DNA from: Arachidicoccus rhizosphaerae
Lineage (GTDB): Bacteria; Bacteroidota; Bacteroidia; Chitinophagales; Chitinophagaceae
Direction of reading: 5' to 3'
NCBI RefSeq assembly: GCF_900107765.1
Contig: NZ_FNQY01000030.1
Location: 1-46,143 of the forward strand
Length of the DNA: 46,143 bases
Of this stretch, positions 1,171 to 44,350 are shown one piece after another. The position numbers and the translations under genes are program-made. Numbering within the stretch: the first letter of the stretch is position 1; each line of letters starts with the position of its first letter. The notes under the pieces were generated by a model. The model was not told where the DNA came from and did not search any database. It worked only from the letters and a program-made list of their open reading frames with translations.

Positions 1171-2052
1171 TTAGCCGCCGTTTGAGATACCGGCCAATTT
1201 TTCCATTTCCCTTCGGATGGAAGCGTAGCTTCCTATCCGGACTATTTTTCCTGATTTATCCACCAGAATCTTTGTCGGAAACTCCTGAATATCCAGTTTC
1301 TGTTCAATATAATCCTTAGCATCCGCCACGATGTCAAAAGCAAAACCCTGCTTTTGGAGAAAGTTTTCAATGGCAGTTTTACTATCCAGACAAAGACTTA
1401 AGAAGAGTACATCCTTTCTGTCCTTATTTTGATATACCCATTTATTCAGTTCAGGCATTTCCCTCACGCAGGCACCGCAACGGACAAACCAGGTATCAAT
1501 CACCAAAATACGTCCCTTACAATTTTCGTTAGTATAGCGTTTACCGTCAATGGCCGTCATGTTAAAACCGGGCAAAGGCTGCCCTTCCATTTTATAATCA
1601 TGCAGGGCCTTCGCAGTTAATTGTTCAATCAGACTTTTAATGACCGGATCTGAAGAGGAAGGCAAAGAAAGGAGTTGATATGTGTAAATATCCTGATTGA
1701 CATCTTTACGATCCGGCCTTTCAATCCGGGTGATGGCCGCCATGTATCTGCCGGTATGTAATTGCTTTAAAAATGCAAGCTTAGAAAGGGTATCCCCTTT
1801 TGTATCCAGGGGCAAAAAATCTCTTGTCAGATCGATACTGTCATACCAATAGTTCCAAAATGACTTAAAATCCGCCGTTAAACCGTGAACATCCGGCCGC
1901 AGTTGGAAAACCTTTACCGTATCCGGCTGTTTAGTTGTAGCCTCCCGAGGCGCTCCATGCTGACTTTGACAACCCGGTAACAGCCATCCTAGAACCAGCA
2001 AGCTGGTACAAAATAAAGCGTGATAAATCCTGCCTTTAGGTTCAACCAGCAT
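1171..2052 (-). CDS. Thioredoxin-like (TlpA/redoxin) lipoprotein
   Basis: 293 residues. The N-terminus has a hydrophobic segment ending in a lipobox (LLPGC, Cys28), so it is probably a lipoprotein facing the periplasm. A poorly conserved N-terminal domain (about 40-150) precedes a thioredoxin fold (about 155-290) with the redox pair Cys192-Gly-Ala-Cys195 in the context WFVRCGACVREMPEL, and the EFPT cis-Pro loop near residue 260. TlpA-like proteins reduce or shuffle disulfides of exported proteins; the substrate cannot be read from sequence. It lies 59 bases downstream of argH on the same strand and may be co-transcribed with it, with no evident functional link. Confidence 0.85.
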   Translation of the reverse strand: MLVEPKGRIYHALFCTSLLVLGWLLPGCQSQHGAPREATTKQPDTVKVFQLRPDVHGLTADFKSFWNYWYDSIDLTRDFLPLDTKGDTLSKLAFLKQLHTGRYMAAITRIERPDRKDVNQDIYTYQLLSLPSSSDPVIKSLIEQLTAKALHDYKMEGQPLPGFNMTAIDGKRYTNENCKGRILVIDTWFVRCGACVREMPELNKWVYQNKDRKDVLFLSLCLDSKTAIENFLQKQGFAFDIVADAKDYIEQKLDIQEFPTKILVDKSGKIVRIGSYASIRREMEKLAGISNGG

Positions 2053-33129: not shown

Positions 33130-34452
33130 TTACAGGAACTCCACCAGTTTTTCCAGCTGATTGCTTCTGGACCCTTTGACTAAAACAAGGCTGTTTGTCA
33201 GTGGCCCCGTGGCAAGAAAAGAGCCCGCGGCATGCTGATCTTTAAACCAGCTATAATCCGTATTCAGCGCCAGCCGCTCAAATTCCGGCCCTATCAGAAT
33301 TACCTGTTGCCAGCCCCCGATCCGGTCTATCTGTGACTTTAGTTTAAGATGCTCGGCCTCAGAGTCCTGCCCCAGTTCTTTCATCCCCCCTAAAATCAAT
33401 ACTTTATGCTGGCCCTGCATCCTTGCAAAATTCTCAATAGCCGCCTGCATGCTGGAAGGGTTGGCATTGTAGGCATCCAGGATAATCTGATTGCTGTCCT
33501 TTTGAATCAGTTGGGACCGGCTGTTGGAAGGCGTATATGCCTGGATGGCCTGTTCGATTCTCTCATCCGAAATATCAAAATAACGACCCAGCGCAATGGC
33601 AGACAGCACATTGGGCAGATTATACGCGCCTACCAGCTGCGTCTTAATAATGCGGTCCGCTTTATGCAGGGCCTGCAGCTTTATCTGTAAAAAAGGATCG
33701 CTCTGAAAAATAGTACCGGCAGCCATCAGGTTCGGCTTGTTACAGGTAGCGCTTTCACTGTACCAGTACTGCCGTTCAATCCCCTGGGTCATATCGGTAA
33801 AATAAGGGTAATCTGCAAAGGAAAAACTGGTTCCGTTATGCGCTCTCAGATAATCAAATAACTCTCCTTTTCCCTTGCGTACCCCGGCCTCGCTGCCAAA
33901 ACCCTCCAGGTGGGCCTTACCGCAATTGGTAATCAGCCCGATGGTGGGCCGGGTATATTCGCAATACCCGGCAATCTCTCTTAAGTGATTGGCTCCCATT
34001 TCAATAACGGCAATATCCGCATCTTTTTTAATGGATAAAATCGTCAGCGGAATACCGATATGGTTGTTCAGGTTCCCCTGCGTGGTATAGGTTGTATAAG
34101 ACTGGCTGAGCACGGCATGCACCAGTTCCTTGGTCGTGGTCTTGCCATTGCTGCCGGTAATGGCAATAAAAGGGATATCAAAAGTCTGCCGGTGAAACGC
34201 GGCCAGCTGCTGCAGACAGGTTAAAACGTCTTCTACCAGGATAATCCGGTCTGCCGCGCCGTCACCGGCGCCGACCGCCTCATCCACGACGGCGTAAGCA
34301 GCGCCGTCCTTTAAAGCCTGCCCGGCATATAGATTCCCATTAAAATTCGGGCCTTTCAAGGCAAAAAACAAATCTCCCGCCTGGATTTTACGGCTGTCCG
34401 TGGTCACAGAGGGATGTTTTGTGTAAATCTCGTACAGTTCTTCTATCGACAT
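33130..34452 (-). CDS. murF: UDP-N-acetylmuramoyl-tripeptide--D-Ala-D-Ala ligase
   Basis: 440 residues from ATG 34452 (MSIEELYEIYTKHPSVTTDSRK). The frame is open 12 codons further, but those come from the end of the group II intron and the join, so they are not native. It adds D-Ala-D-Ala to the peptidoglycan precursor. The Mur ligase P-loop TGSNGKTTT is at 99-107; the N-terminal uracil-binding domain, the central NLNNHIGIPLT block and the C-terminal DAYNANPSSM motif are all MurF features. Only 34 bases separate its start from the intron, so its promoter is interrupted or displaced. Confidence 0.93.
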   Translation of the reverse strand: MSIEELYEIYTKHPSVTTDSRKIQAGDLFFALKGPNFNGNLYAGQALKDGAAYAVVDEAVGAGDGAADRIILVEDVLTCLQQLAAFHRQTFDIPFIAITGSNGKTTTKELVHAVLSQSYTTYTTQGNLNNHIGIPLTILSIKKDADIAVIEMGANHLREIAGYCEYTRPTIGLITNCGKAHLEGFGSEAGVRKGKGELFDYLRAHNGTSFSFADYPYFTDMTQGIERQYWYSESATCNKPNLMAAGTIFQSDPFLQIKLQALHKADRIIKTQLVGAYNLPNVLSAIALGRYFDISDERIEQAIQAYTPSNSRSQLIQKDSNQIILDAYNANPSSMQAAIENFARMQGQHKVLILGGMKELGQDSEAEHLKLKSQIDRIGGWQQVILIGPEFERLALNTDYSWFKDQHAAGSFLATGPLTNSLVLVKGSRSNQLEKLVEFL

Positions 34453-34486
34453 AATGATTGGATAATTTTTTATTGAACCAGCTGCC

Positions 34487-36477
34487 ATCGGGTAGGTAGG
34501 TAGCGATTAGTTCGCTACCTGACCTCCCACACCACCGTACGTACGGTTCCGTATACGGCGGTTCTATTAACTTTTTAAGTGGGTTGGGCCGTTTGGTTAG
34601 CATGAAAAGCCTTAAGGCCATCCACAAAACTAAAGAGTCGCAATCCATCAAAATATTTCTTAGGAAAAGCCAGGTTCATATGTGGCGCTCCCGAGTTGAA
34701 CCATGGACCACGCTGATTAAAGGCTGAACGAACGGCCCTCTGCTCGGACAACCCAGCCTTCCTCAGGTGGGTGAATCTTGTCCAATTACGTTTCCATTGT
34801 CGCCAAAGGATATTTCGTAGTCGGTGCCGCAGCCATTCGTCGAGTTCATGGGCCAGCGTCTTCATATCGGCATAGCGATAATAATTAAACCAGCCTCGGA
34901 TGACAGGATTGAGCCGACGGAAGATAAAGACGGGTAACTTCTGCCCTCTGCCTTGTTGACAGAGGCTTTTGATGGTTTCCTTAAGGCGTATAACGCTTTT
35001 GGGAGCTACACGAATACCCATTGAATTCCCTTTCTTATAATAGAAAGAAAAACCCAGAAATTTCCGTTTTACCGGCCTATCTACAGCGCTTTTTTCCTTG
35101 TTGACCTTTAACTTCATCTTATTTCCTATAAAATTCTGGATGGAGGCAAAGGCTCTTTCTCCGGCTCGGCGGGTCTTCACATACACATTACAATCATCGG
35201 CATATCTTGTATGCCGGTGACCGCGTTTCTCTAACTCTTTATCCAGTTCGTCCAGTACGATGTTCGATAAAATCGGACTAGCTGGGGACCCTTGCGGGGT
35301 GCCCTTTTCTCGTTCCTCCACTATTCCGTCTTTCATCATGCCGGCTGATAGATATCTATGAATAAGCTTGTGAATTTCCCACTCACCGGGTGTTTTTAGC
35401 ATGATTTTACTCATTAGCCTTTGGTGAGGAACCTCATCAAAGAATTTTGAGAGATCTATGTCTATAACTATTCGGTAGCCGTCATCCTGATATTCTTTCG
35501 CCCGGTTTACCGCATCTATTGCCTTTCTTCCCGGGCGAAAGCCGAAGCTGTTGTCGGAGAAAATGGGCTCCCAGATAGGAGTAAGAACTTGTAATAGAGC
35601 CTGTTGTATCAACCGGTCCAGTACCGTAGGAATGCCTAGCATTCTTACACCTCCGTCGGGTTTAGGTATTTCTACCTTCTTCACTGGCTGCGGTTGATAC
35701 TTACCCTGTTTTAGCTGCCCTTCAATTGTTGTCCAGTTTTTCCTTAGAAATAATTTTAAATCGCCCACTTCCATCCCGTCCACTCCTGCCGCTCCTTTAT
35801 TGTCTACGACTTTTAAGAAGGCCTCGTTCAAATTATCCACATTAAGGAGTTTGTCGATTAAGCGGAGTTCGGGGGGATCACATCCTTTCTTTATGGGATC
35901 TACAGGAACGGCACCATCAGCGGCCCATGCCTTTTCGGAAGGCTTTACTTCCCTTGATGATGAAGATGTCTGCATCTTCTTTTCTGCTTCTGACTGTGGA
36001 TTCATAATGATGATTTTAATCCATTTCGTTAATAGTTCGGCCCTTCGTCCTTTCCGTGAGTCTTCCTGCGTTACCTTTTAATTGGGGTCGCAAGCTCGTC
36101 TCGGGCTTACTATGGCTTCTGCTGACTTCTGATACCTTAGCCTGATGTTCCCATCAGGGTTGTTCCGGTTTAGAATACCTCACGTTCCTCCCGCAAACGA
36201 GATACCAGATCTCCCCGGGTAAGATGCACTTCTGTCACGCTTATACACGCCGTATATACTGCTTACCTTTCCGTGTAAGTATCGGACTTTAGAGATAATT
36301 GCCTCCTCATCCAGATAAACAGCCTCATACGATTCCTGTACGTCATGTCAGCGCTTTGCCTGCGGCTTCCTTCAGATTCTGGGTCACCCCAGACACCCTT
36401 GCCGTTCGGCTAATTGTTCCCCTTACCGGGCCAATAGAGGTCTTTCACCTCCTAGAAATACACCATGCCGGGCGCAC
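34487..36477 (-). mobile_element. Group II intron, probably bacterial class C (IIC)
   Basis: On the minus strand the intron starts GTGCGCCCGGCATGG (36477 downward), close to the Oceanobacillus IIC intron start, and contains the conserved AACGGCAAGGGTGTC...AATCTGAAGGAAGC segment. Domain V is visible as GAACCGCCGTATACGGAACC followed by GTACGTACGGTGG, at 34561-34527. Domain VI follows as GGTAGCGAACTAATCGCTACC with a bulged A. The 3' end is TACCCGAT at 34487. It encodes a reverse transcriptase/maturase in domain IV. Insertion immediately after an intrinsic terminator (36486-36512) is the hallmark of class C introns. End points are inferred by eye, within a few bases. Confidence 0.8.
34575..36005 (-). 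CDS. ltrA: Group II intron reverse transcriptase/maturase
   Basis: 476 residues. RT motifs in order: GAAGVDGMEV (71-80), RMLGIPTVLDRLIQQAL (121-137), FGFRPGRKAIDA (154-165), DIDLSKFFDEVPH (182-194), GTPQGSPASPILSNI (235-249), and the catalytic YADD at 268-271. A maturase X domain (about 340-430) includes RGWFNYYRYADM. No HNH endonuclease domain is visible at the C-terminus, as expected for class C introns that insert without target cleavage of the second strand. All catalytic residues are intact, so it may be active. Confidence 0.93.
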   Translation of the reverse strand: MNPQSEAEKKMQTSSSSREVKPSEKAWAADGAVPVDPIKKGCDPPELRLIDKLLNVDNLNEAFLKVVDNKGAAGVDGMEVGDLKLFLRKNWTTIEGQLKQGKYQPQPVKKVEIPKPDGGVRMLGIPTVLDRLIQQALLQVLTPIWEPIFSDNSFGFRPGRKAIDAVNRAKEYQDDGYRIVIDIDLSKFFDEVPHQRLMSKIMLKTPGEWEIHKLIHRYLSAGMMKDGIVEEREKGTPQGSPASPILSNIVLDELDKELEKRGHRHTRYADDCNVYVKTRRAGERAFASIQNFIGNKMKLKVNKEKSAVDRPVKRKFLGFSFYYKKGNSMGIRVAPKSVIRLKETIKSLCQQGRGQKLPVFIFRRLNPVIRGWFNYYRYADMKTLAHELDEWLRHRLRNILWRQWKRNWTRFTHLRKAGLSEQRAVRSAFNQRGPWFNSGAPHMNLAFPKKYFDGLRLFSFVDGLKAFHANQTAQPT

Positions 36478-38740: not shown

Positions 38741-38776
38741 AAAAAAAGCACTGAGGTTGCCGCCTAGTGCTTTTTT
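38741..38776 (-). terminator. Terminator of tRNA-like RNA copy 1
   Basis: On the minus strand GCACT (38770-38766) pairs with AGTGC (38752-38748), with AGG/CCT extending the stem, then seven T (38747-38741). It lies just downstream of the encoded CCA end. Confidence 0.75.
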
Positions 38777-38779
38777 AAA

Positions 38780-38993
38780 TGGCTGTAGGGGTAGGATTCG
38801 AACCTACACGAGGCAGTTGGCTACGGTACAAATCCGGTGGTCAACCCCGGTCTCCCTTGCGGGTGCTCTATACCAAGTTTATCCTGTGATCCTCACCCTC
38901 GAGACGAGAGGGCATGTCTGCCAAAAGTTTCATCACCCCACAATGTTTAAGATCTTTGAATGCTGCCAGCCATCTGCTGTTTTCATCCGTTGA
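38780..38993 (-). ncRNA. Unclassified structured RNA with tRNA-like 3' end, copy 1
   Basis: About 210 nt, no conserved reading frame. The 3' part is a textbook tRNA end: T-stem GTAGG, loop TTCGAAT, CCTAC; acceptor strand CCCTACA (38790-38784); G as discriminator (38783); CCA (38782-38780). The acceptor partner is TGTGGGG (38942-38936), giving seven pairs with one G-U. After it come T and G at tRNA positions 8-9 and an A at 14. GGCAG pairs with CTGCC in place of the anticodon stem, closing three more helices: CCCTC/GAGGG, CCC-GCAA-GGG, and CCGGGG-TTGA-CCaCCGG. A 5' domain (38958-38988) forms its own stem-loop. I do not recognise an RNA family: it lacks the tmRNA D-loop motif and a tag frame, and no group I intron elements are seen. 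Confidence 0.72.
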
Positions 38994-38995
38994 TA

Positions 38996-39006
38996 GTGCA
39001 AAGATA
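38996..39006 (-). promoter_or_regulatory. Promoter of tRNA-like RNA copy 1
   Basis: The minus strand reads TATCTTTGCAC, containing an exact -7 match (TATCTTTG, 39006-38999). The same 11 bases precede copy 2. Transcription should begin near 38993. No TTG at -33 is seen in this copy. Confidence 0.65.
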
Positions 39007-39053
39007 GAAAAAGAATTCTTTTGTTCATAATTTTCTAATAAATATTTTAAAAG

Positions 39054-39070
39054 TTTAGATAATATCTAAA
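39054..39070. promoter_or_regulatory. Dyad 1, TTTAGAT-N3-ATCTAAA, upstream of RNA copy 1
   Basis: Perfect 7-bp inverted repeat with a 3-base spacer, 47 bases upstream of the copy 1 -7 box. A matching dyad lies at the identical distance upstream of copy 2. The flanking TTTTAAAA (39045-39052) is also conserved in position. It is a likely protein-binding site. Confidence 0.6.
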
Positions 39071-39124
39071 TAATAATCAATTTTATTAAATACAATAAAA
39101 TACACCGCTTCACTTTCCGGAATC

Positions 39125-39141
39125 CTTAGATTTTATCTAAG
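39125..39141. promoter_or_regulatory. Dyad 2, CTTAGAT-N3-ATCTAAG
   Basis: Perfect 7-bp inverted repeat with the same core as dyad 1, 71 bases away centre to centre, between the divergent RNA copy 1 and the MFS gene. It could act on either promoter. The rest of 39007-39301 is AT-rich without genes. Confidence 0.55.
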
Positions 39142-39301
39142 CCATTTACGGCTTTCTGCCCTGAACGAAAAAGGTGGCAGATATTATCCTGCGCTGTGCA
39201 GATATTAGCAAACTTTCACAAAGAACTGTATTTTAGTCTAAAGATTGCCTTAAAACCGTAATAACGACTGTTCACTATGCGGCGAGCCTGTTTATTTATG
39301 C

Positions 39302-39309
39302 TAACTTTG
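39302..39309 (+). promoter_or_regulatory. -7 box (TAACTTTG) of the MFS gene
   Basis: Exact TAnnTTTG match 19 bases before the MFS ATG, implying a very short leader like that of gntK. Confidence 0.6.
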
Positions 39310-39328
39310 CGGCGCAAAACAAATTAAA

Positions 39329-40546
39329 ATGTCTCGTTTATCTAAGTCTGGTTCTTTGAACCTTTCTTTAAAAATCACGATCGCCAGTTATGTACTCTTT
39401 ACATTCTTTGGTTATCTGTGTATCGGATTACCCCTTGCAGTGCTGCCTATTTTCATCACCAAGCACTTAGGCTATTCTGCGATGATGGCAGGGATCGTCA
39501 TCAGCCTGCAATATGTCACGACTTTTCTGACCAGAGGCTGGTCCGGTACCCTGATTGATAAACACGGTCCCAAGCTCTCTGTCTATATCAGTATGGGCTG
39601 CATGGCCCTGAGCGGCGTGCTATTGTACATCACTTATTTAACCAGCGCACATGCCTTTTTAAGTCTTTTCGTACTGATTATCGCTAGACTGATCACGGGG
39701 TGCGCAGAAGGCTTTATCGGCGCCTCACCTATTACCTGGGCCATGCTGGCGGCAGGAGAAAAGCAAACCGCGACGGTTATTTCCTATAACGGTATCGCCT
39801 CGTACGGAGGAATCGCACTGGGTGCGACCCTGGGCGTTTTTATAAACCAGCATATTCATATCGGCGCGATCGGTGTATTAACCATTTTGCTGGGGCTGTT
39901 TGGTTATTTTCTGGCCACCAAAAAACCCAATATGATCGCCCCCGTGTCTGACCAGACCCAAAAGGATCCGATTTCATTTATGACGGTCCTGATAAAAGTC
40001 GCGCCTTATGGTATCTGTCTGATGCTGGCAGGTCTTGGCTTTGGAACCATCTCTAATTTCATTACGCTTTATTACGATCATTTTCACTGGGACCATGCCG
40101 CACTTTGCCTCAGCGTATTCAGCTTTTTGTTTATCATAGGCAGGATGTTCTTTTCCAATGCGATTAATGACTATGGCGGCATCAAGGTAGCCATGGCCTG
40201 CCTGGCCTGCGAGACCATCGGGCTCCTTATACTGGCTTTATTTACCCAGCCGGGATTCGCCCTTGTAGGGGCTGCCGTCACCGGCTTTGGCTTTTCGCTG
40301 ATGTTCCCTTCTCTGGGCGTTGAGGCGGTCAAATTATTTACGTCTGACCGCAGCGGAGCGGCACTGGCCGCTTACGGTCTGTTTATTGATATCTCCCTGG
40401 GCATTACCGGTCCCCTGATAGGCGGTCTGATTGAATCCTTTGGTATAGAATATATGTTTAGCTTTACAACGGTCATTGTACTGGCAGGATTTATCTATTG
40501 TTCCACCCTGAACCGTAAAATGGTCAGAAAACTGGCGACCCGGTAA
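39329..40546 (+). CDS. Major facilitator superfamily transporter (YfcJ/YhhS-like)
   Basis: 405 residues, twelve predicted membrane segments. The loop 2-3 motif appears as RGWSGTLIDKHGPK (about 70-83), a variant of the MFS GxLaDrxGrr pattern; residues 133-180 carry the GCAEGFIGASPITWAMLA region typical of the YfcJ/YhhS/SetA-like efflux group. Substrate unknown. The upstream region carries two TTAGAT dyads and the divergent RNA copy 1. A decayed second copy of its last 60 bases lies 32 bases downstream. Confidence 0.85.
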   Translation: MSRLSKSGSLNLSLKITIASYVLFTFFGYLCIGLPLAVLPIFITKHLGYSAMMAGIVISLQYVTTFLTRGWSGTLIDKHGPKLSVYISMGCMALSGVLLYITYLTSAHAFLSLFVLIIARLITGCAEGFIGASPITWAMLAAGEKQTATVISYNGIASYGGIALGATLGVFINQHIHIGAIGVLTILLGLFGYFLATKKPNMIAPVSDQTQKDPISFMTVLIKVAPYGICLMLAGLGFGTISNFITLYYDHFHWDHAALCLSVFSFLFIIGRMFFSNAINDYGGIKVAMACLACETIGLLILALFTQPGFALVGAAVTGFGFSLMFPSLGVEAVKLFTSDRSGAALAAYGLFIDISLGITGPLIGGLIESFGIEYMFSFTTVIVLAGFIYCSTLNRKMVRKLATR

Positions 40547-40577
40547 CGGCCGCCGTCCTTAATGTTTCTCTATATAA

Positions 40578-40639
40578 GCAGGATTTGCGGTTGTTCCTCT
40601 TTGAACTGTAAAATGGCTCGAAGACTGGCCATCCGTTAA
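40578..40639 (+). pseudogene. Decayed duplicate of the 3' end of the MFS gene
   Basis: The stretch starting GCAGGATTT and ending TTAA resembles 40484-40546, the last 63 bases of the MFS gene including its stop: both share GCAGGATTT, TTGTTCC, TGAAC and GTAAAATGG in order, with substitutions and a one-base gap. It no longer encodes the tail in frame. This points to a former tandem paralogue that was mostly deleted, or to a partial duplication. The rest of 40547-40880 holds only the dyad at 40811-40835. Confidence 0.5.
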
Positions 40640-40810
40640 GAGATCAGCAACGCAAGAGTTATGTCGCTTTAAAAACGTAAAGCAGCATTAGCCGGATTTG
40701 GTTTCAGATACGCAAAAAGAAAAAGATATTGCAAATGCAAGAGCTTTACACTATCATAACCGGACAGTAACTGTATCACATTCGAACACGAAATAAATAA
40801 ATTCAATATC

Positions 40811-40835
40811 TATTTACCTATATTACAGGTAAATA
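40811..40835. promoter_or_regulatory. Perfect 9-bp dyad before the ABC permease gene
   Basis: TATTTACCT, seven bases, then AGGTAAATA: a perfect inverted repeat 45 bases before the permease ATG. It is unlike the TTAGAT dyads. Likely operator for an unidentified regulator. Confidence 0.45.
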
Positions 40836-40880
40836 ATTTTTGGCATTATTTCTAGAGCCCCATAATTAACATTATGGTCC

Positions 40881-43259
40881 ATGGAAAATAATAACCTCAA
40901 AACGGCTTTCCGGAGCCTGAAAAAAGATCGGACATTTTCCTTACTCAATTTGGCAGGGCTTAGCCTCGCCTTGTTTTGCAGTTTAATGATCCTGCTTTGG
41001 ATCCGGGAACAAAAAAGTATCGATAATTTTCATAACAATGGCAAGGACATCTATATCATTTACGAGAATTTGCATGTGGAGGGTGATATTAATTCCAGTT
41101 ATCGGACTCAGGGCATACTGGCTGCACCGCTGAAAGAAAAAATTCCGGAAATTAAGGAGGCTTCTAATGTGGCATGGCTAAAAGATGAACCGGACAGAGC
41201 CATTTTTAAAGTCAATGCAAGGCAATATCAATTTGAGACCATCTTTGCCGACAGCAATTATTTAAAAATTTTAAGTTACCCACTGCTGGCCGGAGATCCC
41301 AATAAGACATTGAATTCCCCCAAAAGCATATGTATCTCTGAGAGCATGGCCAAAGCCTTATTCTCAGATCCCAACAAAGCCATCGGGCAAATCATCAGTT
41401 ATGACGGGAAAAAAGATTTAAAAATTACGGCCGTATTTAAAAACCAGCCTCCAGAAGCCTCGCAAAGATTCGACTGTATTATAAATTGGCCCACATTTCT
41501 GGAAGAGAATACCTGGGCTAAAGATTGGGGAAATGTAGGGACCAATACGTTGGTTATGCTTAAAAAAAGCGCAGACCCCAAATTAACGGCAAAAAAGATA
41601 AAACATTTTGTAGATACCTATGTTAAACCGGACAACCACTATCGTATAACGCTGGGCTTGCAAAGGTATGGGGATAGTTATTTACATGACAAATTTGAAA
41701 ACGGGCAAATTTCCGGGGGTAAAATCCAGTATGTGCGTCTGTTTAGGCTCATTGCACTTTTTATCATGATTATCGCCAGCATCAATTTTGTCAATCTTTC
41801 CACAGCCAGGGCCGTTACTCGTGCCAAATCTACCGCGGTGAGAAAAATTATCGGAGCAAGCCGGCGTTCCCTGATCTGGAATTATCTGACTGAAGCATTT
41901 ATAGTAACCCTGCTAGCCACCCTGATTGCCCTATTTGCCGTAGCGGCGGCGCTGCCAGGGTTTAATCAGTTAACGCACAGCCACAGCTATATCCCTGGAA
42001 AGGATCCGATATTCTGGGCAAAATTAATTCTTTTAGTACTTCTCACCTCCTTGGCTGCAGGCCTGTATCCGGCCATTATGACCACTTCTTTCAAACCCAT
42101 AGTCTTTTTACAGAAAACATTATCGGTGAATAAAAACTCACTGATATTTAGAAAAGGGTTGGTCGTTTTTCAATTTGTCCTGGCTAATTTGCTGATAGCC
42201 GGTACGGTGATCATCTTTCAACAAATTCATTATATTCATCATTTGGATTTAGGATTTGACCGCAATAACCTCATTGAATTGCCCGTAACCTCCAATATCG
42301 CCAGCAAATATGAAGCTTTTAAAAATAAGGCTCTGCAAATCAATGGTGTCCAGTCGCTTTCAAAAATGGGCGAAAACCCCACCTCTGTAGGTAGTCTAAC
42401 CTTTGGTGTAAGCTGGCCCGGGAAAAATCCAAATGATAAGATTATGTTCAATAATGCTGCCATCGGTTATGATTTTGTAAAAACCCTCAAACTTCATCTG
42501 AAAGCAGGAAGGGATTTTTCAAAGGCATACCCTTCGGACACCGTTGGTTATTTAATTAATGAGGCCGCTCAAAAGGTGATGGGATTAGACCAGGCAGTAG
42601 GTCAGCCGCTGAATTTCTGGGGCCACCAGGGTAGCATTATTGGCGTTTTGAAAAATTTTCATTTTTCTTCCCTCCATGATCCGATTAACCCAATTATTTT
42701 TTATTACGGCGAGAACAAAGACTGGGGTAATATTTTGATCAGGGTTGAGCCTTCCAAAACAAAGGTCGTGTTAACCAGCCTGGAAAAATTATACAAAAAC
42801 ATAACGGGTGGCGCTGAATTTACTTATACATTTTCAGATGACGATTTCAATAAGATGTACCAGAAAGAGCAGCTCCTAAGTAAATTATCCGGTTATTTTT
42901 CTTTTATCGCCATTTTCATTTCCTGCTTGGGGTTACTAGGCTTGATTATCTTTGCCGCAAACCAACGGACAAAAGAAATCGGTATCCGCAAAATCCTGGG
43001 AGCAAGGGTCGGGTCCATCCTAAAGATCCTGTTGAAGGAATTTGCGCAACTTATTTTTATTTCCATCGTCATTGCAACGCCCCTTTGTTTTTATCTGATG
43101 CAAAAATGGCTGGGAGGATACGCCTATAGAATCCAGATACATTGGTGGGTCTTTTTAATCGCCGGCTGTGTGTCCGTGATTATCGCCTTTTTCACGGTCG
43201 GCTATCAGACGCTTAAAGCGGCTGTAGCAAATCCCGTGGACAGTCTTCGCAGTGAATAA
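40881..43259 (+). CDS. FtsX/MacB-type ABC transporter permease
   Basis: 792 residues. Architecture of the eight-segment Bacteroidetes permeases: membrane segment at about 18-42, a MacB periplasmic domain (about 45-270), a FtsX block with three segments (about 285-405; FVNLSTARAVTRAKSTAVRKIIGASRRSLIWNYL), a segment near 430, a second periplasmic domain (450-660), and a second FtsX block (670-790; NQRTKEIGIRKILGARVGSILKILLKEF) ending in PVDSLRSE. Such proteins work with a separate LolD-like ATPase and transport lipoproteins, peptides or signals; no ATPase gene is adjacent. Two-component systems often control them, but none is here. A perfect dyad lies just upstream. Confidence 0.9.
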   Translation: MENNNLKTAFRSLKKDRTFSLLNLAGLSLALFCSLMILLWIREQKSIDNFHNNGKDIYIIYENLHVEGDINSSYRTQGILAAPLKEKIPEIKEASNVAWLKDEPDRAIFKVNARQYQFETIFADSNYLKILSYPLLAGDPNKTLNSPKSICISESMAKALFSDPNKAIGQIISYDGKKDLKITAVFKNQPPEASQRFDCIINWPTFLEENTWAKDWGNVGTNTLVMLKKSADPKLTAKKIKHFVDTYVKPDNHYRITLGLQRYGDSYLHDKFENGQISGGKIQYVRLFRLIALFIMIIASINFVNLSTARAVTRAKSTAVRKIIGASRRSLIWNYLTEAFIVTLLATLIALFAVAAALPGFNQLTHSHSYIPGKDPIFWAKLILLVLLTSLAAGLYPAIMTTSFKPIVFLQKTLSVNKNSLIFRKGLVVFQFVLANLLIAGTVIIFQQIHYIHHLDLGFDRNNLIELPVTSNIASKYEAFKNKALQINGVQSLSKMGENPTSVGSLTFGVSWPGKNPNDKIMFNNAAIGYDFVKTLKLHLKAGRDFSKAYPSDTVGYLINEAAQKVMGLDQAVGQPLNFWGHQGSIIGVLKNFHFSSLHDPINPIIFYYGENKDWGNILIRVEPSKTKVVLTSLEKLYKNITGGAEFTYTFSDDDFNKMYQKEQLLSKLSGYFSFIAIFISCLGLLGLIIFAANQRTKEIGIRKILGARVGSILKILLKEFAQLIFISIVIATPLCFYLMQKWLGGYAYRIQIHWWVFLIAGCVSVIIAFFTVGYQTLKAAVANPVDSLRSE

Positions 43260-43398
43260 GGCTACCCAAGATCTAGGCTATTGTTCAAAAATGCCGTCTT
43301 TACATAAATTACTCTTCATCGTTATTTGCTCCATACACATTTCACCCTAATTCCGGAGGTCTGTAAAGAGAACGGCTTTAAGCAATTACCTTCTTTCA

Positions 43399-43426
43399 GC
43401 AGCAGGGATCTATCGGATCCCGCTGC
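43399..43426 (+). terminator. Probable terminator after the ABC permease
   Basis: GCAGC-A-GGGATC, loop TATCG, GATCCC-GCTGC: eleven pairs with one bulged A, then ATCTTTAT. The T-run is modest. The short ORF spanning it (43326-43529) is not protein-like. Confidence 0.5.
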
Positions 43427-43468
43427 ATCTTTATCTAAACCAAGGATTTGGCACATTTATTTAAACAA

Positions 43469-43514
43469 AAAGGCAGCTATAACGGATGTATATAACATCT
43501 GTATAGCTGCCTTT
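43469..43514 (-). terminator. Terminator of tRNA-like RNA copy 2
   Basis: AAAGGCAGCTATA (43469-43481) pairs with TATAGCTGCCTTT (43502-43514), with inner CGGATGT/ACATCTG pairing; on the minus strand it ends in TTTTTGTTT. Its sequence is unrelated to the copy 1 terminator. Confidence 0.8.
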
Positions 43515-43532
43515 AAGGTAAGTTTTTAAAGC

Positions 43533-43747
43533 TTGCTGTAGGGGTAGGAGTCGAACCTACACGAGGCAGTTGGCTTAAGTACAAAATCCGGTGGTCAACC
43601 CCGGTCTCCCTTGCGGGTGCTCTATACTCAGTTTATCCTGTGATCCTCACCCTCGAGACGAGAGGGCATGTCTGCCGAAAAGTTTCATCACCCCACAATG
43701 TTTAAGATCTGTGAATGTCCCGGGATATTCCCGTTTTCATCCTTTGA
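43533..43747 (-). ncRNA. Unclassified structured RNA with tRNA-like 3' end, copy 2
   Basis: The core from TGTGGGG (43697-43691) to CCCTACA (43543-43537) is almost identical to copy 1, with about ten differences in 160 bases. T-arm: GTAGG-TTCGACT-CCTAC. All core helices (GGCAG/CTGCC, CCCTC/GAGGG, CCC-GCAA-GGG, CCGGGG-TTGA-CCaCCGG) are unchanged. The base after the acceptor is G, but then CAA instead of CCA, so a CCA end would have to be added after processing. In the 5' domain the inner hairpin is CGGGA-TAT-type (43721-43733), different in sequence from copy 1 yet still paired, while the outer stem GGATG/CATTC is kept. Differences are also seen around GTACTTAAG in the 3' internal loop. Confidence 0.72.
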
Positions 43748-43749
43748 TA

Positions 43750-43783
43750 GTGCAAAGATAGGCCCGGGGTATGTTTATTACAA
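43750..43783 (-). promoter_or_regulatory. Promoter of tRNA-like RNA copy 2
   Basis: On the minus strand TTG (43783-43781), 20 bases, then TATCTTTGCAC (43760-43750) with the exact -7 box TATCTTTG. Start expected near 43747. Confidence 0.7.
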
Positions 43784-43807
43784 ATTATTCAAACTTTTTT
43801 TTAAAAT

Positions 43808-43824
43808 ATTAGATTATATTTAAA
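43808..43824. promoter_or_regulatory. Dyad 3, imperfect TTAGAT-N3-ATTTAA, between RNA copy 2 and the Lrp gene
   Basis: ATTAGAT-TAT-ATTTAAA resembles the two perfect dyads near copy 1. It starts 48 bases upstream of the copy 2 -7 box end, exactly as dyad 1 does for copy 1, and ends 43 bases before the Lrp/AsnC ATG, so one site could control both directions. TTTTAAAA (43799-43806) is also position-conserved. Confidence 0.55.
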
Positions 43825-43867
43825 AATTAATTATTATATTTGATTAATAATTAAAACAGGGAGAAAT

Positions 43868-44350
43868 ATGAGCCAAAAATTAAATTTAGACAAATTGGAT
43901 TATCAGATTATCCAGGTCATGATGGAGAATGCAGAAATCTCTTATGCCGACCTGGGTAAAAAGCTATTTGTTTCAGGTGGCACTATTCATGTAAGGATAA
44001 AGAAGTTACAGGAATATGGTATTGTCACCGGCTCCCGGCTGAATATCAATACCAAGGCCCTTGGTTTTGACGTCATCACTTTTGTCGGCATCTATCTGGA
44101 AAAAAGCTCTATGTATGAAGATGTTGCAACAGAATTAAAAAAGATCCCGGAGATTGTCCGGTTAAATTATACAACCGGCACTTACAGTATGTTCGCCGAA
44201 ATTGTCTGCAAGGATATCCGGCAGTTAAAACATGTCCTGCATGATGAATTGCAAAATATCAAAGGCATTGAAAGGACGGAGACGCTGATATCTCTGGAAG
44301 AGAGCTTTAACCGTAATGTGCTCGTGCTTGACGAAGAAGAGATTAACTAG
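43868..44350 (+). CDS. Lrp/AsnC-family transcriptional regulator
   Basis: 160 residues. The N-terminal HTH is LDKLDYQIIQVMMENAEISYADLGKKLFVSGGTIHVRIKKLQEYGIVTGSRLNIN (about 6-60), with the recognition helix around SGGTIHVRIKKL. The C-terminal RAM/AsnC ligand domain covers about 65-145 and ends in TLISLEESFNR. These proteins form dimers to octamers that bind dyads and respond to amino acids. It is divergent from RNA copy 2 across a 100-base gap holding dyad 3, and therefore probably controls itself and the RNA. The ligand cannot be predicted. DUF2157 follows 43 bases later. Confidence 0.93.
   Translation: MSQKLNLDKLDYQIIQVMMENAEISYADLGKKLFVSGGTIHVRIKKLQEYGIVTGSRLNINTKALGFDVITFVGIYLEKSSMYEDVATELKKIPEIVRLNYTTGTYSMFAEIVCKDIRQLKHVLHDELQNIKGIERTETLISLEESFNRNVLVLDEEEIN

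Follow-up and report, generated by a model that had tools for sequence, protein, structure and literature searches.

Two copies of a tRNA-shaped RNA are encoded on the minus strand of the 46,143-nucleotide contig NZ_FNQY01000030.1 of Arachidicoccus rhizosphaerae (Bacteroidota, Chitinophagaceae), the whole of which was analysed and is referred to here as the window. They belong to an RNA family that is real, widespread in Bacteroidota and apparently undescribed within Rfam release 15 and the open PubMed Central literature, and the link of this family to asparagine metabolism is well supported. The RNA is rather probably a dedicated, non-decoding tRNA serving as a carrier for asparagine synthesis. 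We favour this reading because three lines of evidence point together: the aspartate identity determinants along with the U1:A72 pair, the gene pair formed with an AsnC-type regulator, and the co-occurrence pattern with GatB and AsnB. The features of the window involved are the following.

38782..38943, minus strand: tRNA-like RNA copy A, running from one base ahead of U1 through C74 (covariance model match of 169.1 bits; BLAST pair with copy B; sequence)
38782-38780, minus strand: CCA encoded by copy A (sequence)
38996..39006, minus strand: promoter box TATCTTTGCAC of copy A (sequence)
39043..39072, strand unspecified: candidate regulator-binding stretch upstream of copy A (24 of 30 bases the same as in the copy B stretch, at equal distance)
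38741..38776, minus strand: terminator hairpin and T-run of copy A (sequence, by eye)
43535..43698, minus strand: tRNA-like RNA copy B, the copy adjoining the regulator gene (covariance model match of 170.4 bits; sequence)
43750..43760, minus strand: promoter box TATCTTTGCAC of copy B (sequence)
43797..43826, strand unspecified: candidate regulator-binding stretch between copy B and the AsnC-type gene (similarity to the copy A stretch)
43466..43510, minus strand: terminator hairpin and T-run of copy B (sequence, by eye)
43868..44350, plus strand: AsnC-type regulator of 160 amino acids (aa), divergent from copy B (PF01037; NCBIfam AsnC model; structure 2cg4)

The first-pass annotation of the window had described two minus-strand cores about 4.7 kb apart, preceded by an identical promoter box and followed by unrelated terminators. 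Both cores are indeed present, 4,754 bases apart and 95% identical across 183 bases by BLAST, with the same box at each locus, which we take to be the Bacteroidota -7 type promoter, and with unrelated terminator hairpins. The RNA was found by BLAST in 34 of 59 genomes of the same genus, family and order (the A. rhizosphaerae genome included), and the two cores are thus not a product of chance. The shared core was correctly recognized, but the likeness extends further upstream: 24 of 30 bases are common to the two copies about 37-66 bases before the promoter box, which 1 of 2000 shuffles equalled. Similarly, the tRNA likeness that had been assigned to the 3' ends is real but not confined to them, as the whole RNA is tRNA-shaped.

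Each copy forms a complete cloverleaf with acceptor stem, D arm, anticodon arm, giant variable arm, T arm and G73-C74. In the window copies, a T precedes U1 and the acceptor strand UGUGGGG is followed by UG, the D stem AUG/CAU with GG in its loop, and G26. The anticodon arm has the stem CCCUC/GAGGG and the loop UCGUCUC and is followed by U44, after which come a variable arm of 87-88 nucleotides (nt) up to the T stem, the T arm, CCCUACA, G73 and C74. Energy folding of single copies barely beats shuffled sequences (z of -0.63 and -1.02, with 49 and 30 of 200 shuffles folding equally well), and the tRNA shape is therefore shown by covariation instead, the check across homologues that the annotation had itself named. 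Among 48 relatives, 97.9% of the cells are paired, 20 of the 41 pairs vary on both sides, none of 500 shuffles attains any of the five covariation measures, and sliding of the partners lowers pairing to 43-57%. When the comparison is widened to 94 distinct rows, among them one tRNA-Leu and one partial match, an alignment fitted to the model gives 96.7% pairing with 35 of 41 pairs varying on both sides, and in this set the anticodon arm covaries.

The variable arm has GRRG/CYYC as its outer stem, followed by another short stem and by an internal loop in which GAUAAA or GACAAA mostly faces CUAA; the window copies have CCAA instead. Beyond it lies a longer helix, which in 39 of 91 members is tipped by a GGGUNGACCAC-type loop. 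Given that the length of the variable arm ranges from 43 to 126 nt (70 sequences) and that one member, L200, has a 5-nt loop in its place, the tRNA body is the constant part. A role of the palindromic arm loop as a dimer site for the core function is unlikely, the pattern being absent in 52 of the 91 members. An 8-bp acceptor stem as in tRNA-Sec was rejected: U1 is preceded by C or U in 84 of the 91 members, yet by A in the other 7. Ordinary tRNAs of A. rhizosphaerae also have C74 right after the discriminator, which favours reading the stem as 7 bp with G73-C74. Inspection by eye revealed no consistent partner for the anticodon loop in the variable arm or the leader. At locus L154, two segments downstream of a full copy (976-1043 and 1294-1361, minus strand) match just the variable-arm portion of the model, with no tRNA body matched around them.

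A clear match to a known Rfam family, which had been named as a check, did not appear: neither window copy reaches a gathering score. At relaxed settings copy A gives RF00005 (tRNA) at 15.4 bits, under its cut-off of 29 bits, along with three unrelated chance-level matches, and copy B gives nothing, while ARAGORN finds neither a tRNA nor a tmRNA in the window. The RNA has the covarying D, anticodon and T arms of a tRNA cloverleaf and falls short of the 29-bit gathering score. A tmRNA, which joins a tag reading frame to a tRNA-like domain lacking an anticodon arm, does not fit the covarying anticodon arm, and the tRNA-Asn anticodon GUU is absent, with C36 in 91 of 91 members. For tRNA-Ser, PMC9976931 lists G73, C72, G2:C71, R4:Y69, C11:G24, G30:C40 and a large arm as determinants. 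The family has G73, G2:C71, the large arm and mostly R4:Y69, with A72 instead of C72, mostly U:A instead of C:G at 11:24, and mostly another pair than G:C at 30:40. Seryl identity was set aside as C72, C11:G24 and G30:C40 are mostly missing and as it leaves the conserved anticodon loop unexplained, although SerRS could still bind the RNA. The suggestion that this is a new small RNA family gains support from the lack of a gathering-score match in Rfam together with covariation; no description of it was found in Rfam release 15 or in the titles and abstract starts of CC-licensed PubMed Central articles.

One exact pattern of the RNA occurs in 43 public contigs with titles naming Chitinophagaceae or its genera, Sphingobacteriia or Bacteroidetes. 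At E 0.001, 226 of 298 genomes of the order have matches to the family model R1, some of them weak and likely to be tRNA-Leu. Across 395 genomes of the phylum, 40 score at least 85 bits, followed by a gap down to 62.9 bits, the score of a match (L199) that ARAGORN identifies as tRNA-Leu. RNA genomes are accordingly counted from matches of at least 85 bits only, plus the short member L200. Matches of about 84-89 nt were classed as tRNA-Leu by length and score, L199 being the one confirmed by ARAGORN, and the large genome searches ran stricter filters that drop weak matches. In A. rhizosphaerae itself, the family model detects three tRNA-Leu genes at 35-47 bits and two tRNA-Ser genes at 25-29 bits, and the same search gave no match for two other class II loci (one Leu, one Ser). 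Judging from sequence likeness, the family most likely descends from a class II tRNA of the leucine kind: tRNA-Leu shares the three-pair D stem, the GG in the D loop and the long variable arm, and scores as high as 62.9 bits against the family model. Unlike tRNA-Leu, which has A73 and G1:C72, the RNA has G73 and U1:A72, an Asp-type anticodon loop and an arm of 43-126 nt. Tandem arrays of three or four copies occur at L185, L188, L192 and L193 (listed with genomes G157, G197 and G249), and genomes of family f18 hold up to six model matches each, weak ones included. The short member L200 (538-615, minus strand, genome G381) is 77 nt long with a 5-nt variable loop and reads anticodon AUC, U37, C38, G73 and U1:A72. 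This member may be in the course of losing its original function; G381 also has AsnA.

Letter counts were drawn from 66 loci chosen to span families rather than from all matches. Removal of L199, L200 and one partial row left 95 of 98 rows, or 91 distinct members; the rows were found with a model favouring these letters, and the same model also reaches tRNA-Leu genes that lack them. U35, C36, C38, G73, C74, G2:C71 and U1:A72 are each present in 91 of 91 members, and G34 in 88, the other three having C (two) or U (one). Position 37 is T in 81 members, C in 5, G in 4 and A in 1, hence a pyrimidine in 86 and a purine in 5. U33 is found in 76 of the 91, and C33 in 7, as in the window copies. A purine at position 37 is a general feature of tRNAs, and by that general knowledge the pyrimidine 37 and the C33 of the window copies argue against decoding. 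According to PMC9976931, the strong aspartate determinants are G73, G34, U35, C36 and C38, and G2:C71 contributes to a minor extent; U1:A72 makes Asp-tRNA-Asn a target for amidation, whereas in tRNA-Asp amidation is prevented by U20a and by G1:C72, to which bacterial tRNA-Asp strictly adheres. The RNA family combines this aspartate identity set with the amidation mark of a GatCAB substrate: G34, U35, C36, C38 and G73 of a bacterial tRNA-Asp are there, its G1:C72 is absent and its purine 37 rare, and U1:A72 is present in all members. The D loop after GG reads CAGA or CAGC in 88 of 91 members with no U near, though position 20a is hard to assign. The five tRNA-Leu genes of A. rhizosphaerae carry G1:C72 and A73 and its tRNA-Asp carries G1:C72, so that on a Leu-like body the combination of aspartate and GatCAB letters looks derived. 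Members at L190, L191 and L170 read CUC or UUC at positions 34-36, and such Glu-type anticodons could perhaps mean loading with glutamate.

The gene adjoining copy B codes for a protein whose best NCBIfam model is AsnC (161 bits; Lrp 53 bits). It fails the cut-off of 227 bits for NF008384 AsnC and can thus be called AsnC-like rather than a confirmed AsnC; among solved structures the nearest is 2cg4, an AsnC (2e-34; Lrp 1e-10). An AsnC-type gene is divergent from the RNA, 121-236 nt away, in 132 of 166 loci where the RNA could be placed (duplicates included), and no other arrangement of RNA and regulator was seen among these loci. The 34 without an adjacent regulator include 20 from family f18 and 5 from family f28, several of which have the regulator elsewhere; among the rest, some end near the RNA and one is copy A of the window. 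Of 112 distinct intergenic sequences, 108 contain a loose TAnn(n)TTG box, a pattern set against no chance expectation; in 89 of these it begins 108-112 nt from the start of the regulator. In E. coli, asnC and asnA are likewise divergent, 151 nt apart, and AsnC adjusts asnA; in the proposed system an RNA gene stands in the place of the enzyme gene. In the RNA-less genome G363, an AsnC-like gene and an AsnB-like gene (491 bits against a cut-off of 499) diverge across 118 nt, and in 14 other RNA-less genomes where both places are known no listed regulator-like gene adjoins AsnB. The regulator was detected at E 1e-50 or better in 10 of 61 genomes searched; two of these ten (G206 and G200) have the RNA elsewhere, in two (G168 and G174) the start of the RNA is cut by the contig end (L215 and L222), and the other six have no RNA at the regulator locus. 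Genome G037 keeps the regulator, and the RNA was not found in the 480 bases preceding its AsnC-type gene (L217); in its place, inspection by eye showed another structured-looking stretch that ends in a terminator-like hairpin.

At the scale of the phylum, the regulator and RNA searches each took in 395 genomes, the same set by handle. The regulator at E 1e-42 is present in 44 of them, namely all 40 RNA genomes plus G381, G316, G429 and G657, and as G381 holds the short member the RNA genomes number 41. A Fisher test on 40/0 against 4/351 gives about 1e-50, kinship being ignored. Synthesis genes were examined in 80 genomes: the 41 with the RNA, 3 with the regulator only, 18 other RNA-less Bacteroidia and 18 RNA-less genomes of other classes. 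GatB, whose tie to the RNA was predicted before the test, was found in 41/41, 0/3, 1/18 and 15/18 of these groups, and AsnB of the E. coli type over its cut-off in 0/41, 3/3, 13/18 and 2/18, so that in the genomes tested the RNA and this AsnB are mutually exclusive. Pooling the 21 RNA-less Bacteroidia, regulator-only genomes included, gives GatB in 1 and E. coli-type AsnB in 16. AsnA occurs in 4/41, 2/3, 0/18 and 0/18, which leaves 37 of the 41 RNA genomes lacking both AsnA and E. coli-type AsnB. In family f23, G316, G429 and G657 have AsnB, no GatB and no RNA found, and seven RNA genomes have GatB and no AsnB over the cut-off; the kit of RNA and GatB and the kit of AsnB thus appear to replace each other. 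Genomes G035 and G113 of family f1 have neither the RNA at 85 bits nor a regulator, GatB, AsnA or AsnB. The A. rhizosphaerae genome encodes one AspRS and one AsnRS.

The analysis shows the fold, the family, the invariant letters, the conserved gene pair and the patterns of GatB and E. coli-type AsnB in the genomes tested; aspartate charging, amidation, exclusion from translation, asparagine release and regulation are what we infer from these. AspRS would recognize the aspartate determinants of the RNA and load it with aspartate, GatCAB would recognize U1:A72 and amidate the aspartate to asparagine on the RNA, and the asparagine would then be freed to feed AsnRS, leaving the RNA ready for another round. 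Access of the Asn-loaded RNA to the ribosome would be blocked by its giant variable arm and its changed anticodon loop, which has a pyrimidine at 37 and in some members lacks U33. The divergent AsnC-type regulator would tune the level of the RNA to asparagine, much as E. coli AsnC controls asnA. An RNA with an aspartate anticodon would allow a discriminating AspRS to load it, and asparagine would be kept from Asp codons provided that the RNA cannot decode. The first-pass annotation had pictured a tRNA mimic binding a tRNA-processing enzyme, a synthetase, EF-Tu or the ribosome; a synthetase, AspRS, is the best supported of these partners. The adjacent regulator and the ties to GatCAB and asparagine go beyond that annotation.

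Several observations weigh against a carrier for asparagine synthesis. The release of asparagine is its weakest step and would have to be fast enough to feed protein synthesis. U1:A72 takes the place of the G1:C72 of tRNA-Asp and no G is conserved at position 10, both of which count against efficient loading with aspartate. Three of the 91 members have C or U at position 34 and so a Glu-type anticodon, and two such genomes (G618 and G684) are without AsnA and AsnB. AsnA is present in the 4 RNA genomes mentioned, GatB in 15 of the 18 RNA-less genomes outside Bacteroidia, and G351 has GatB without the RNA, AsnA or AsnB over the cut-off. The AsnB model is silent at 1e-60 in Bacillus subtilis, one of 14 controls, whose asparagine synthetases are of another type, and six RNA genomes hold paralogues of 601-657 aa at 207-238 bits; RNA genomes could therefore possess a synthetase of a different type, such as that of B. 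subtilis. In six genomes (G032, G235, G037, G289, G316 and G429) the regulator is kept and no RNA was found beside it. Finally, the 36 RNA-less genomes were picked by handle from earlier lists, not at random, and the co-occurrence ignores ancestry.

Other explanations share part of this evidence. Ordinary tRNA-Asn could itself be the site of asparagine synthesis, through a non-discriminating AspRS and GatCAB as in Bdellovibrio, with the RNA acting as a scaffold or helper that holds both enzymes; we regard this as unlikely, though it is the rival that deserves most attention. Both the determinants and the co-occurrence would be expected to be the same for a scaffold, and the tRNA-Asn route is proven elsewhere; PMC4206432 places Bacteroidetes among 18 genera with AsnRS, GlnRS and GatCAB and no asparagine synthetase, and its authors suggest synthesis on tRNA-Asn. 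Against that route, the tRNA-Asn of A. rhizosphaerae carries U20a (in our numbering), which PMC9976931 gives as an amidation antideterminant in tRNA-Asp. A scaffold, moreover, needs no change in the anticodon loop that blocks decoding. The AspRS of A. rhizosphaerae has Phe where 1efw has Leu and where 4rmf, named an Asp/Asn ligase, has His, the residue that presumably marks the relaxed type. None of these three points is decisive, although the U20a and the Phe lean against synthesis on tRNA-Asn. Somewhat less likely still is a regulator, under the AsnC-type protein, that ties up AspRS or reports its charging and thereby adjusts the use of aspartate and asparagine. The aspartate determinants without decoding features and the adjacent AsnC-type gene would suit such a role, and the near-palindromic loop at the arm end of 39 of 91 members could pair two RNAs, but U1:A72, the link with GatB and the missing E. 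coli-type AsnB are left unexplained.

The remaining readings take the RNA as a working tRNA or as a mimic of another kind. A specialised tRNA that decodes Asp or, once amidated, inserts Asn at Asp codons would account for the full cloverleaf, G73-C74, the mostly GUC anticodon and the prevalence of U33. We nevertheless judge it very improbable given the rarity of purine 37, the C33 of the window copies, the length of the variable arms and the normal tRNA-Asp in the same genome. Bacterial Y RNAs are known to contain tRNA-like modules, which makes a tRNA-mimicking Y RNA working with the Ro60 protein conceivable; the Ro60 domain PF05731 was not found in the A. rhizosphaerae genome and is present in 2 of 51 genomes, and we give this reading next to no credence.

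The carrier that we favour has its closest relative in tRNA-dependent asparagine synthesis on tRNA-Asn in Deinococcus, Thermus and Bdellovibrio, with AspRS, GatCAB and U1:A72 common to both. In Bdellovibrio this route occurs where AsnA and AsnB are missing (PMC4206432). Unlike the tRNA-Asn route, the proposed carrier would be a separate, apparently non-decoding RNA with an Asp anticodon and its own regulator, from which asparagine must be freed. Allo-tRNAs and selC-like tRNA-Cys (PMC7609411) also have a tRNA shape with altered arms, and some are unusable for translation in E. coli; they possess a longer acceptor branch of another type, and the available text of PMC7609411 mentions no link to AsnC or GatCAB.

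If the RNA is such a carrier, a dedicated metabolic tRNA would join those that act outside translation. Such a carrier would account for asparagine synthesis in the many Bacteroidota that have neither AsnA nor an AsnB of the E. coli type and for the retention of GatCAB in a genome with its own AsnRS, and in a regulated gene pair an RNA would stand where an enzyme gene otherwise does. ARAGORN and Rfam both missed the family here. A more far-reaching version, possible but doubtful, is that the RNA gene replaced an asparagine synthetase gene, a recyclable non-decoding tRNA yielding free asparagine for the whole cell, and that the giant arm with its recurring GAUAAA/CUAA-type internal loop speeds release or senses asparagine. 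In that case it would be, to our knowledge, the first RNA kept solely as a carrier for the synthesis of a free amino acid.

Two further observations concern other parts of the window. A group II intron (34487-36393, minus strand) with a maturase frame at 34575-36005 directly adjoins a Mur ligase frame (33130-34488), and a 49-base direct repeat (40498-40639), 78% identical, is located at the end of the MFS transporter frame and just downstream.

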